36,284 nucleotides of DNA. Source: a virus. A program made the translations under genes and the position numbers. This document shows positions 1,554 to 36,284 of the stretch, piece after piece. The notes under the pieces were generated by a model. It worked only from the letters and a program-made list of their open reading frames with translations. It had not been told where the DNA came from and did no database searches. The stretch is from positions 1 through 36,284 of the IMG/VR virus record IMGVR_UViG_3300035665_000134; one strand, 5' to 3'. Each line of letters starts with the position of its first letter. Position 1 is the first letter of the stretch.

Positions 1554-1624
1554 CCCCTGCTTAATTTTTAAGCAAATCGGGTTTTCCCATATACATATTT
1601 TTTAAGAAATATAACCATTGTCGA

Positions 1625-1646
1625 TAATACTACGACAGTAGTATTA
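1625..1646. repeat. Perfect 9-bp inverted repeat in AT-rich region
   Basis: TAATACTAC (1625-1633) and GTAGTATTA (1638-1646) are exact reverse complements separated by GACA. It lies about 75 bp left of the DnaA-box cluster. It may form a hairpin or cruciform, or be a binding site for a dimeric protein. No T-run follows, so it does not look like a terminator. Confidence 0.7.
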
Positions 1647-1719
1647 AGGAACTAGTAATGTAGTAGTACTAATGTAGAACAGTACTATATTCTATATAAC
1701 CAAGAATCATGCCAGGTAG

Positions 1720-1752
1720 TTATCCACACAGTTATCAACAGCTTTATCCACA
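1720..1752 (+). other. Three DnaA-box-like sites with 12-bp phasing
   Basis: TTATCCACA at 1720-1728, TTATCAACA at 1732-1740 and TTATCCACA at 1744-1752. The outer two match the bacterial DnaA box consensus TTATNCACA perfectly and the middle one differs at one position. All three have the same orientation and start exactly 12 bp apart. Chance occurrence of two perfect boxes plus a near-match in phase is unlikely. They are the core of the proposed origin. Confidence 0.7.
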
Positions 1753-1788
1753 GGCTATTGAATGAAAGGAAACGATAGAAATTACTCA

Positions 1789-1816
1789 TTGTTAAAGTTA
1801 TTTGTGTTACTGTAAT
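1789..1816 (+). promoter_or_regulatory. Candidate sigma70 promoter before gene at 1867
   Basis: TTGTTA (1789-1794, 4/6 to the -35 consensus), a 16-bp spacer and TGTAAT (1811-1816, 5/6 to the -10 consensus). The predicted start site would be near 1823, at the left edge of a perfect palindrome. It would drive the zinc-binding protein gene and the recombination operon downstream. Confidence 0.45.
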
Positions 1817-1823
1817 GTCCGGT

Positions 1824-1839
1824 TGTGCAATTTTGCACA
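1824..1839. promoter_or_regulatory. Candidate operator, 7-bp perfect palindrome
   Basis: TGTGCAA and TTGCACA are perfect reverse complements separated by TT. The palindrome sits exactly where the transcript from the promoter at 1789-1816 would start, so a bound dimeric repressor would block initiation. The small HTH protein encoded at 5813-6055 at the end of the same operon is an obvious but untested candidate ligand. Confidence 0.45.
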
Positions 1840-1866
1840 GCGATTAGACCTTCTAGGAGATTAGTT

Positions 1867-2385: not shown

Positions 2386-2525
2386 CCAATGAAATAGCCA
2401 AGCTACCCTGGTCGCTCACTTGTGAGATTGCCTGTCGCGCAATGTTGCTAAACATATCTTTCGAGCAAGCAGTTCAAATTGCTATCCGTCAATACTTAGA
2501 AGTTACAAAAGGGGAAACTCAATGA
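2382..2525 (+). CDS. Small hypothetical protein, 47 aa
   Basis: A short frame starting MTNEIAKLPWSLTCEIACRA and ending VTKGETQ. Support comes from overlaps at both ends: its ATG overlaps the upstream stop (ATGA at 2382-2385) and its stop overlaps the exonuclease ATG (ATGA at 2522-2525). It fills what would otherwise be a gap in a tightly packed operon. One amphipathic helical stretch is likely in the middle; no known motif. It may be a coupling peptide for exonuclease translation or a real small protein. Confidence 0.55.
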   Translation: MTNEIAKLPWSLTCEIACRAMLLNISFEQAVQIAIRQYLEVTKGETQ

Positions 2526-3427
2526 CAAGTCCTAATCAAGATGATTTCGCGCCAGAGATTCGGCGCTCTGCCTGGTGGTCAGGTGACAGCCGTAAAGCTG
2601 CTAATGGTCGCGCTGCTGACGTGATCCTAGAAAAGCTAGGCAAGAAGGAAGCGCCTGATCTGAGCAACATTGAAGCTGTCCAGATGGGCAAAGTGATGGA
2701 GCCTACCATTGCCAGACTATTCCAGGATAAGCACAAGATCGAACTCAAGGACGCAGACTATGCACTTTCACATCCGGTTGAAACGTGGATGCGCTCTCAC
2801 TTTGATTACATCAGTGCAGATGGACGCACGCTCGTTGAATGCAAAAATTACAACGCTAGCGTTATGTCTAAGTTCGACGAAGAAACAGGTGTGGTTCCTG
2901 CTGCTGATATGGCGCAACTTGTCCACGAAGCGGCCTGCCATAACGTGGATGAGATTTACCTTGCGGTCTTGTTTGGGGGGCAGGCATTCCGTACCTATCA
3001 CTTCAACATCACGCCAGAGATGAAAGAAGACCTGATCCGACAAATGGCAAAACTTTGGGGCATGGTAGCCACCAACACCCTGCCAGAACCTGATTCTCTC
3101 GACAGCGTGAAGCTTATCTATCCAGAGTCCACAGAAGCCACCATCGTCGCGTCCGGCGCTGTCGAGAAAGCCTGTGAAGCACTCAAGGCATACAAGGCCA
3201 AGATCAAGGAACTAGAGGATCAGTCAGAAGCATTAGAAGTCGCTATCAGGGGCTACATGGCAGACAAGTCAACCCTGACAGACTTAGGCGGCAGAACCCT
3301 AGCAACCTGGCGCACCGCTAAGTCTTCCAGCAAGTTTGACGCAAAGCTATTCCAGCAAGCTATGCCGGACATCTATGAAAAGTTTGTTGTGGAAACGCCA
3401 GGTAGTCGTAGATTCCTTTTGAAATAG
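2522..3427 (+). CDS. YqaJ/lambda-Exo-type recombination exonuclease
   Basis: A 301-residue protein of the YqaJ viral recombinase group in the PD-(D/E)XK nuclease superfamily. It would digest one strand of double-stranded ends to expose ssDNA for annealing. Visible motifs: early RRSAWWSGDSR, GKVMEP with a conserved Glu at 60, HFDYISADG with D95, then VECKN with the E107-x-K109 catalytic pair. A coiled-coil stretch follows at about 214-240, and the C terminus (FDAKLFQQAMPDIYEKFVVETPGSRRFLLK region) resembles the usual end of this family. GGGGAAACTCA precedes the ATG. The next gene is RecT-like, giving the classic exonuclease plus annealing pair, which supports replication by recombination or end repair. 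Confidence 0.88.
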   Translation: MTSPNQDDFAPEIRRSAWWSGDSRKAANGRAADVILEKLGKKEAPDLSNIEAVQMGKVMEPTIARLFQDKHKIELKDADYALSHPVETWMRSHFDYISADGRTLVECKNYNASVMSKFDEETGVVPAADMAQLVHEAACHNVDEIYLAVLFGGQAFRTYHFNITPEMKEDLIRQMAKLWGMVATNTLPEPDSLDSVKLIYPESTEATIVASGAVEKACEALKAYKAKIKELEDQSEALEVAIRGYMADKSTLTDLGGRTLATWRTAKSSSKFDAKLFQQAMPDIYEKFVVETPGSRRFLLK

Positions 3428-3437
3428 GAGATGAGAA

Positions 3438-4250
3438 ATGAGTAACTTAGTACCAGTGCAAGACATAGAACGTATGGCATTAGCTGTTGCTAAGTCCGGT
3501 CTATTTGGTGTCAAGACCGCAGACGAAGCAATGGCGTTGATGTTAATCGCTCAGGCCGAAGGCCAGCACCCTGCAATAGCTGCGCGTGACTATCACATTA
3601 TTCAGGGCAGACCAGCACTCAAAGCTGACGCAATGCTGGCACGTTTCCAAAACTCAGGCGGCAAGGTGCAATGGGAGGACTACACAGATGAACGAGTTTC
3701 TGGAATTTTTAGTCATCCTAGTGGCGGGTCTATTACTGTTACTTGGACTCTCGATCAGGCAAAGCATATTGGATTGGTTAAGCCTAGTTCGGGATGGCAT
3801 AAGTATCCTCGCGCAATGCTTAGATCGCGCTGCATCTCAGAAGGAATCAGAGCAGTGTATCCAGGCTGTGTGGTTGGAACCTACTCAGTGGAGGAAGTCC
3901 AGGACTTTGACGATAAACCGGCAAAGACTGCTGCACCAGAGATCAAAGACATGGGTGCGGCAGACATCGTTGACGAGATTAAGTCAGCTAAGGCCGTAGG
4001 TGAGGATTTTTTGCCTCTGTACATTCCAGGTCAAGAGGAACCATACGATACAGCGGTGAGTTTAGAAGATTGGGAGAGTATCTTTTACCAGATGATTTCA
4101 AAGGTAAAAGCAGGAAAGCTTGATGACAAGCAGAAGCTAGAGAAGCTTAAAGCTTTCAAACAATCCAATCAGCAGGTTATTGAAACAATGACACCCACAG
4201 CACGAACCAAGGTGTTGGCAGCGGTAAATACACTGGAGGCATCAGCATGA
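3438..4250 (+). CDS. RecT-like ssDNA annealing protein
   Basis: A 270-residue protein resembling phage RecT-family single-strand annealing proteins. Seen: an N-terminal AEGQHPAIAARDYHIIQGRPALKADAML segment (about 40-67), a central beta-rich region (GSITVTWTLDQAKHIGL), and WHKYPRAMLRSRCISEGIRAVYPG (120-143), matching the 'W.kyP..Ml..R......R..fp' signature. It would coat the strand made by the exonuclease and anneal it to complementary DNA. The C-terminal third is acidic and less conserved. AGGAGATGAGAA lies before the ATG. It overlaps the following gene by 4 nt (ATGA). Confidence 0.85.
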   Translation: MSNLVPVQDIERMALAVAKSGLFGVKTADEAMALMLIAQAEGQHPAIAARDYHIIQGRPALKADAMLARFQNSGGKVQWEDYTDERVSGIFSHPSGGSITVTWTLDQAKHIGLVKPSSGWHKYPRAMLRSRCISEGIRAVYPGCVVGTYSVEEVQDFDDKPAKTAAPEIKDMGAADIVDEIKSAKAVGEDFLPLYIPGQEEPYDTAVSLEDWESIFYQMISKVKAGKLDDKQKLEKLKAFKQSNQQVIETMTPTARTKVLAAVNTLEASA

Positions 4251-4549
4251 AACAGCATCAATCAGAACCAGGCAAGGGCGTACTCTTTCAGAACGATAAG
4301 AAAGCGCCAGGATCGGCACAGCCTGACTACAAAGGCGTACTCACTGTAGACCGAGATGTTAAGGCGGGTGAGCAGGTCAAAATTGCCGCCTGGAAAAAAG
4401 CCACCAGAATTGGTGAACTGATTAGCCTAGCGCAAGACAACTGGACACCCGATCCTAATTACCGCAAGCCACCAATGGAAGCGCCACAGGCTACGCTCAA
4501 GAAGCCTCGGGAGTATGACCCATTCAAGGATGACGAAGTACCGTTCTGA
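4247..4549 (+). CDS. SSB-like protein with acidic C-terminal tip
   Basis: A 100-residue protein. The segment GVLFQNDKKAPGSAQPDYKGVLTVDRDVKAGEQVKIAAWKK resembles phage proteins of the 'L(F)KND.K....PDY.G....... .I..W.K' kind, predicted OB-fold-like and often called SSB-like or DUF736-like. The C terminus, EYDPFKDDEVPF, closely imitates the acidic Asp/Glu-x-Pro-Phe tip by which bacterial SSB recruits partner proteins. It lies directly after exonuclease and RecT-like genes, with ATGA upstream and TGATG downstream overlaps. A role in ssDNA protection during recombination is likely; ssDNA binding itself is inferred. Confidence 0.65.
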   Translation: MKQHQSEPGKGVLFQNDKKAPGSAQPDYKGVLTVDRDVKAGEQVKIAAWKKATRIGELISLAQDNWTPDPNYRKPPMEAPQATLKKPREYDPFKDDEVPF

Positions 4550-34183: not shown

Positions 34184-34332
34184 GATAGCTTTACCCTACC
34201 CCGATAGGAAAATGACAATGCGAGAGGGCGTGTTGTCATACTGTCATCTTACTCTTTCCGCAACTAACTGACCATATTACATATAAGACAATTACTTACA
34301 TACCATATATATATAGTAACTATATAATGTGC

Positions 34333-34356
34333 CTATCAGATATGCTTTCCTGATAG
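34333..34356. repeat. 7-bp inverted repeat upstream of early promoter
   Basis: CTATCAG (34333-34339) and CTGATAG (34350-34356) are exact reverse complements with a 10-nt spacer, ending 22 bp before the -35 of the rightward promoter. It may be an operator or activator site. Confidence 0.45.
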
Positions 34357-34378
34357 AAATATATCATTGCATATTAGG

Positions 34379-34407
34379 TTGAATAATCACGAATATAATC
34401 ATATAAT
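34379..34407 (+). promoter_or_regulatory. Rightward sigma70-type early promoter
   Basis: TTGAAT (34379-34384, 4/6), a 17-bp spacer and a perfect TATAAT (34402-34407). Transcription would begin near 34414 and read the membrane-protein and beta-clamp-like genes. This is the best host-type promoter in the window, so early expression probably uses the host RNA polymerase. Confidence 0.65.
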
Positions 34408-34451
34408 ACGTTTCAGCAGCACTTGATTAATTCCTTAACGGAGATTCGACA

Positions 34452-34644: not shown

Positions 34645-35268
34645 ATGAAATTCACACTCAAGCGCAAGGAACTCAAAGCACTTTCACGGTTTGCAAGCAA
34701 GCAAGATATCCGTTTTTACTTGATGGGCGTTTGCGTCACTCAGGATCGGCGCGGAACTATCTTAGAAGCTACTAATGGTCATATGCTTGGAAGACTGTTA
34801 GTCAACGTCGAAAGCCATGAAACGCCGAAGCGCGTCATCATCAAGTCAAGCGACATTGAAAAGCTAAAAGGAACCAAGAAAACCGCCGATGATTGGTTGC
34901 ATTTCACCGTCAACGGTCAAGAAATCCAAGTCATTGCGCCCGATTCGACAATGATGCTAACCGCTTTGGAAGGCACTTTTCCCGATTGTGATCGAGTAAC
35001 GCCGAAAGTCTTAAAAGACGAAGACGCCAAGCCTGCTAACTTTAATCCTGAATACTTGGTTGCCTTTATGCAAGCTGCGGAAGACTTGACAGGCAAAAAG
35101 CAAACGCCGAGGATTTTCCATCAAGGCAAGAATCCGGCTTTAGTGGCTTTACCTGCCGTTGATGAGTTCGTTGGCGTTTTAATGCCAATGCGTGAAGATG
35201 CTTATGGCGGCACTTTGCCGCAATGGTTCCAAGCGGAAGCGGTCAAGTCAGAAGCTGAAACGGTCTAA
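34645..35268 (+). CDS. Mini beta-clamp-like protein (DnaN-related)
   Basis: A 207-residue protein with hallmarks of the DNA polymerase III beta sliding clamp: ATNGHMLGRLLV (42-53), GTFPDCDRVTPK (110-121), a FNPEYL segment (133-138), and GVLMPMR (177-183), nearly identical to the terminal PMR element of bacterial DnaN. Bacterial clamps have about 366 residues in three repeated domains; this has room for roughly two. It also has a 24-residue tail beyond the usual end. It could form a reduced ring, compete with the host clamp or recruit the host polymerase. A perfect GGAGATTCGAC leader precedes the ATG. Homology is fairly clear; function is inferred. Confidence 0.72.
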   Translation: MKFTLKRKELKALSRFASKQDIRFYLMGVCVTQDRRGTILEATNGHMLGRLLVNVESHETPKRVIIKSSDIEKLKGTKKTADDWLHFTVNGQEIQVIAPDSTMMLTALEGTFPDCDRVTPKVLKDEDAKPANFNPEYLVAFMQAAEDLTGKKQTPRIFHQGKNPALVALPAVDEFVGVLMPMREDAYGGTLPQWFQAEAVKSEAETV

Positions 35269-36163: not shown

Positions 36164-36284
36164 ATGTCACCAGCTAAGAAACTCGCTTTAGTTAAAAATT
36201 CTCCCGCGCGCGCCCCCGCGCCTAAGCCTGAGTCATCAGAACCGCTAACCATTTTGGACAACAAATTTCGGTGGACTCCACCAG
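36164..36284 (+). CDS. Small basic protein, 3' truncated (repeat copy B)
   Basis: The frame starts at ATG 36164 after AGGAGG and runs off the window after 40 codons. Its peptide is identical so far to the gene at 1356-1553, although the first 30 nt differ at three wobble positions. From 36194 to the last base the DNA is identical to 1386-1476. A diverged version of the same leader (36127-36146) lies upstream. It is either a second gene copy or an assembly overlap. Confidence 0.7.
   Translation, partial: MSPAKKLALVKNSPARAPAPKPESSEPLTILDNKFRWTPP
36194..36284 (+). repeat. 91-nt direct repeat, copy B at window end
   Basis: Identical to 1386-1476 and ends exactly at the last base. The offset between copies is 34,808 bp. 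Termination of the sequence exactly within a perfect internal repeat is typical of a contig path re-entering itself. Confidence 0.95.

Follow-up and report, generated by a model that had tools for sequence, protein, structure and literature searches.

A phased array of DnaA box-like sites is a candidate host-dependent replication origin in a freshwater phage lineage

Introduction

How phages without replication genes begin to copy their DNA is rarely known. DnaA-dependent origins of phages and plasmids include P1 oriR and those of F, pSC101 and RK2, and coliphage 186 requires host dnaA. A lytic phage origin of this type was not encountered in the open-access literature searched; one phage with DnaA boxes predicted by Ori-Finder has been described (PMC11512268). 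The DNA analyzed here, called the window, is a virus record of 36,284 bases, classed as linear and belonging to a phage from freshwater. Its intergenic control region at positions 1554 to 1866 (313 bp), between a 65-aa ORF (1356 to 1553) and a 91-aa ORF (1867 to 2142), holds three DnaA box-like sites next to AT-rich DNA. Does the phage start replication there by recruiting host DnaA, as the initial annotation proposed, or does the locus serve another purpose?

Results

The triplet TTATCCACA-cag-TTATCAACA-gct-TTATCCACA spans positions 1720 to 1752 on the + strand, and the starts 12 bp apart given in the initial annotation (1720, 1732 and 1744) were borne out. Boxes 1 (1720 to 1728) and 3 (1744 to 1752) match TTATNCACA exactly; among relatives, box 1 varies mostly at base 5 and box 3 is nearly invariant. 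Box 2 (1732 to 1740) has one mismatch to TTATNCACA, is presumed to be weaker and is the most variable box in relatives; its variant TTATCAACA is also found paired at 12 bp in arrays of T5-like phages. Single boxes with at most one mismatch occur at chance level (30 in the window versus 34 expected). A phased triplet with steps of 11 to 12 bp was seen once in the window and in none of 300 genomes simulated with the dinucleotide transitions of the record. Chance or base composition as the source of the triplet was ruled out by these simulations and by a reversed control pattern, which found no matches in viral contigs. The cluster therefore exceeds chance and has constrained spacing, as expected of an origin.

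Next to the array, an operon on the + strand begins with the 91-aa ORF, which is cysteine rich, conserved in most relatives and without a PHROG match. It is followed by genes for a YqaJ/RecE-like exonuclease (2522 to 3427; PF09588, 7e-9; phrog_434, 3e-50), a RecT-like annealing protein (3438 to 4250; phrog_561, 4.5e-26) and an SSB-like protein (4247 to 4549; phrog_18154, 4e-8). A long block on the - strand carries the terminase, portal, capsid and endolysin genes, and a sliding-clamp-like protein (DNA polymerase III beta, central domain) is encoded at 34645 to 35268 on the + strand (PF02767, 3.8e-6, over its cut-off; phrog_947, 8e-13). The clamp gene is missing from most relatives, which rules it out as part of a fixed unit. 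The clamp-like protein is also matched by phrog_3007, labelled RusA-like resolvase; this family has matches in bacterial genomes that have a beta clamp as well, and the RusA label looks wrong. As for the ends of the record, the last 91 bases (36194 to 36284) exactly repeat 1386 to 1476, as part of a 188-bp match of 88%. This repeat probably joins the record into a circle, and positions 1 to 1385 would then represent another upstream path, taken from a variant strain.

Pfam and PHROG searches, which covered the early genes and, of the late genes, the larger ones, recognized no polymerase, helicase, primase or initiator. The claim that no helicase, primase or polymerase is visible thus held as far as these searches went, but it had overlooked the sliding-clamp-like and SSB-like genes. 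Targeted searches of 17 lineage records for DnaA and DnaB homologues found neither, and no DnaA scored over the cut-off in 50 other array-bearing contigs. A phage-encoded DnaA was accordingly rejected as the partner of the array.

To follow the array across the lineage, we used 80 loci encoding RecT relatives. Box-like sites were present in 38 of the 43 relatives in which both flanking ORFs are visible, down to a RecT identity of about 63%, always in the gap separating the 65-aa ORF from the 91-aa ORF, with the strand unchanged and in 11- to 12-bp steps. The spacing is 12+12 in close kin and 11+12 in more distant relatives, several of which have two boxes 11 bp apart; the spacers between boxes in the lineage measure 2 to 3 bp. 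The exact 12-bp phasing claimed at the outset therefore applies to the window and close relatives only. Among 11 distinct triplets, base 5, which is free in TTATNCACA, was not C in 12 of 33 cells, versus 13 departures in 264 cells elsewhere, a result somewhat favored by choosing triplets with base 5 uncounted, although the loci themselves are anchored by their neighbors. For the outer boxes of the same triplets, the counts were 9 of 22 at base 5 and 3 of 176 elsewhere. Hence, variation in the boxes follows the specificity of DnaA, with its free base 5, as would be looked for in an origin.

The comparison with related phages that the initial annotation had called for thus confirmed slot and strand, but five of the 43 relatives (L007, L020, L022, L052 and L079) lack the boxes. 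In L007, L020, L022 and L052, whose RecT proteins are 79 to 98% identical, the segment holding both hairpin and boxes is swapped for a different, box-less and hairpin-rich one. This inverted-repeat-rich replacement lies at 3125 to 3705 in L007, and the conserved sequence resumes near CTATTGAC..GATAGAAATTACTCATTG. Two other relatives, L014 (about 320 to 830) and L035 (about 3200 to 3650), have DNA inserted right after the array, and their boxes have drifted; by eye, the reverse strand of the insert resembles an HNH endonuclease gene. Relatives from Manatee Spring (RecT about 50 to 54%) showed no phased array at 0 to 1 mismatch in the stretches examined. The isolated phages P8625 and S-LBS1, which encode RecT relatives, were considered as experimental models and set aside; both lack an exact DnaA box and carry annotated primase-type genes.

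The flanks of the array were also evaluated for the low stability expected beside the boxes of an origin. By nearest-neighbor energy, the AT-rich 5' flank at 1561 to 1710 ranks second among 150-bp segments of the record in low stability. This corroborates the AT-rich DNA noted earlier and makes the flank a candidate unwinding region adjoining the boxes. The least stable 150-bp segment, at 34264 to 34413, lies in the large gap from which the late and early genes diverge; this segment lacks phased boxes and is the other origin candidate. The AT-rich 3' flank (1755 to 1804), which holds the conserved GATAGAAATTACTCATTG, is one of the eight least stable 50-bp segments. Chromosomal origins usually unwind on the 3' side of the boxes.

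Several repeats accompany the boxes. The perfect 9-bp inverted repeat TAATACTAC[gaca]GTAGTATTA (1625 to 1646) and the two direct repeats TAATGTAG (1656 to 1663 and 1670 to 1677, + strand) were found as first described, the latter being altered in more distant relatives. At the 9-bp repeat, relatives carry the stems TAGTAATAC/GTATTACTA, ATAGTTCTTT/AAAGAACTAT and ATAGTTACT/AGTAACTAT, all paired; this element of changing sequence sits 60 to 95 bp upstream of the first box. Its arms seldom arose in shuffles for six of the eight sequences tested; those of L048 and L041 were unremarkable. A MAFFT alignment put the hairpin stems in the wrong place, and the covariation counts did not draw on it. That the stems stay paired while their sequence varies suggests selection for pairing, at the DNA or the RNA level. 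A 7-bp inverted repeat, TGCTTAA[ttt]TTAAGCA (1558 to 1574), is kept in most relatives and reads ACTGCCTA/TAGGCAGT in L048, and the inverted repeat TGTGCAA..TTGCACA (1824 to 1839), upstream of the 91-aa ORF, also occurs in most box-less relatives. Read by eye, the box-less relatives have other inverted repeats in the same place.

Strand asymmetry and DnaA-trios lent an origin no support. Third-position GC skew showed no consistent turn at the array; the values were -0.023 for the right and -0.153 for the left early genes, and -0.09 and -0.051 on the + strand for the late arms, against expectation. In the basal unwinding system, tandem DnaA boxes lie at most 3 bp apart (PMC8287927), as do the boxes here, with spacers of 2 to 3 bp. 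The DnaA-trio is another element of this system (PMC8287927, PMC6669920), and we looked for at least three trios 0 to 16 bp beyond the boxes, with a polarity taken partly from general knowledge. The window has a run of two, within shuffle expectation, and none in the 3' flank at 1755 to 1804; relatives have runs of two to five, none beyond shuffles.

Similar arrays are found well outside the lineage. The pattern TTATCCACANNNTTATCMACANNNTTATCCACA occurs in at least 119 viral contig stretches. When gaps of 0 to 30 bp were allowed freely, the spacings of exact boxes in unrelated viral contigs peaked at 11 to 12, about 22 and 33 bp, that is, at whole helical turns. Only 39% of 138 nonredundant array-bearing viral loci fall inside an ORF of at least 100 aa, versus 75% of random positions. 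Among the nearest ORFs at the 69 loci outside the studied family, RusA was the commonest match (11 of 138), and SSB and YqaJ were also seen. One of these 138 neighboring ORFs, on an unrelated viral contig, matches the DNA-binding domain of DnaA (PF08299, 1.3e-6). The idea that the array marks phages lacking DnaB was unsupported, DnaB being present in 5 of 50 unrelated viral contigs with arrays versus 5 of 28 controls. In bacterial genomes, DnaA or DnaN was the nearest ORF at about 13 to 14 of about 48 loci with the similar three-box pattern TTATNCACANNNTTATNCACANNNTTATNCACA, indicating that this pattern often marks chromosomal origins.

Isolated phages with arrays include Berlinvirus P483, nasanit, the SP6-like Klebsiella phage ZK1, T5_ev212, the KVP40-like Vibrio phage VH7D and microvirus 581. 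P483 (L515, 3310 to 3435) and nasanit (L519), both T7-like coliphages, have five to eight box-like sites on one strand near the early genome end. ZK1 (L516, 19 to 198) has eight, several at 20- to 21-bp steps, less than 200 bases from the genome end. Phages of the T7, SP6, T5 and T4 types bring replication proteins of their own, and microvirus 581 has an annotated initiator. Arrays are thus carried even by groups equipped in this way, and the presence of one need not signify an origin; phage arrays may also titrate or manipulate DnaA.

Discussion

The conserved slot, strand and 11- to 12-bp phasing of the boxes, their variation at the free base 5 and the lack of DnaA and DnaB in 17 lineage records make it highly probable, on the sequence comparisons, that the array is a binding site for host DnaA. 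Given such binding, an origin function is somewhat favored. Taken together, a replication origin that borrows the host machinery is our best reading of the array, at about even odds. Since the lineage has no recognized initiator or helicase, the start of replication by host machinery would be the simplest use of the boxes, and the exonuclease, RecT and SSB genes nearby provide a supporting context. The proposal that the phage replicates by recruiting host DnaA is thus well supported as to recruitment, through conservation, base 5 and the 17 records, while origin use is only plausible: the five box-less relatives and the arrays in phage groups with replication proteins of their own speak against it, and the GC skew and DnaA-trio results lend it no support.

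Under an origin function, three molecules of host DnaA would bind the triplet next to one another, all on the same face of the helix. The bound DnaA would nucleate a complex able to open the neighboring AT-rich DNA and to load the replicative helicase of the host. The host replisome would then copy the phage genome, assisted by SSB-like and RecT-like proteins of the phage and by the clamp-like protein that some members have.

Binding of DnaA could also serve the phage without starting its replication. The array, multiplied with the phage copies, might titrate DnaA or alter its nucleotide state, like datA or DARS, and so shut down or alter host initiation, while the phage starts elsewhere or by recombination. 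We regard this as rather unlikely here, even though same-strand arrays occur in P483, nasanit, ZK1, T5_ev212 and VH7D, from groups with their own replication proteins, and box-less relatives exist. The small DnaA-box clusters datA and DARS of E. coli likewise act on DnaA without being origins (PMC5835720). However, a decoy would not require one intergenic slot, one orientation and neighboring hairpins across a lineage, and it would have only three boxes, in a lineage in which no initiator or helicase gene (DnaA or DnaB, 17 records) was found. Its boxes also all point one way with no IHF site recognized by eye near the array, unlike datA.

Two further readings leave origin function aside. In bacteria, DnaA doubles as a transcription factor, and when bound to the boxes it might regulate early transcription of the operon with the exonuclease and RecT genes. 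The array is oriented along this operon, whose first ORF (91 aa) lies about 115 bp downstream, and relatives retain the 3' block GATAGAAATTACTCATTGTTAAA whether or not they have boxes. Such a promoter is improbable, however, as no sigma-70-like site exceeded the scan threshold on the + strand between 1500 and 1900, and box-less relatives retain the same downstream block and genes. Still less probable is that the hairpin pair is the essential element, acting in single-stranded DNA or RNA in priming or RNA control, with the boxes as accessories. The perfect pairing kept while the repeats change in sequence, and the hairpin-rich array slot of the box-less relatives, would fit this reading, but the boxes themselves are under strong constraint, and L048 and L041 have weaker perfect stems.

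As a host-dependent origin, the locus can be compared with known systems. Like bacterial chromosomal oriC, it has tandem DnaA boxes 2 to 3 bp apart beside AT-rich DNA; unlike oriC, it has only three boxes, lies on a phage, shows no DnaA-trio run in the window and has no dnaA or dnaN neighbor, although a clamp-like gene is found elsewhere in the record. With P1 oriR, F, pSC101, RK2 and coliphage 186 it would share the use of host DnaA by an extrachromosomal element. Origins with known initiators such as RepA, RepE or TrfA use iterons together with DnaA boxes, whereas no iteron set was recognized here, and no initiator by Pfam or PHROGs in the scanned ORFs, many of the small ones being without a match. 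The array resembles datA and DARS in being a small DnaA-box cluster, and the DARS of ColE1 has three boxes; yet DARS needs two boxes in a defined orientation and datA needs IHF, whereas here three co-oriented boxes lie beside an unstable region. The arrays of P483, nasanit, ZK1, T5_ev212, VH7D and microvirus 581 are similar in their same-strand boxes, mostly at steps of 11 to 12 or about 21 bp and largely non-coding. They differ in being often larger, in the position of the ZK1 array near the genome end and in the replication proteins that those groups possess.

The element adds a phage-borne variant to the known DnaA-box origins and DnaA-binding clusters. A broader view, which we put forward tentatively and hold to be possible rather than probable, is that helically phased same-strand arrays of host DnaA boxes are widespread and convergently acquired. 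They would serve small phages that lack a replisome as an origin and phages that have one as a DnaA-capturing device, and in this lineage a hairpin-rich segment without boxes could take their place. A short conserved array for host DnaA offers a directly testable answer to how DNA copying begins in an abundant freshwater lineage, and the arrays in well-studied T7-, T5- and KVP40-like phages raise the general question, open to test in laboratory strains, of what phages gain by binding host DnaA.
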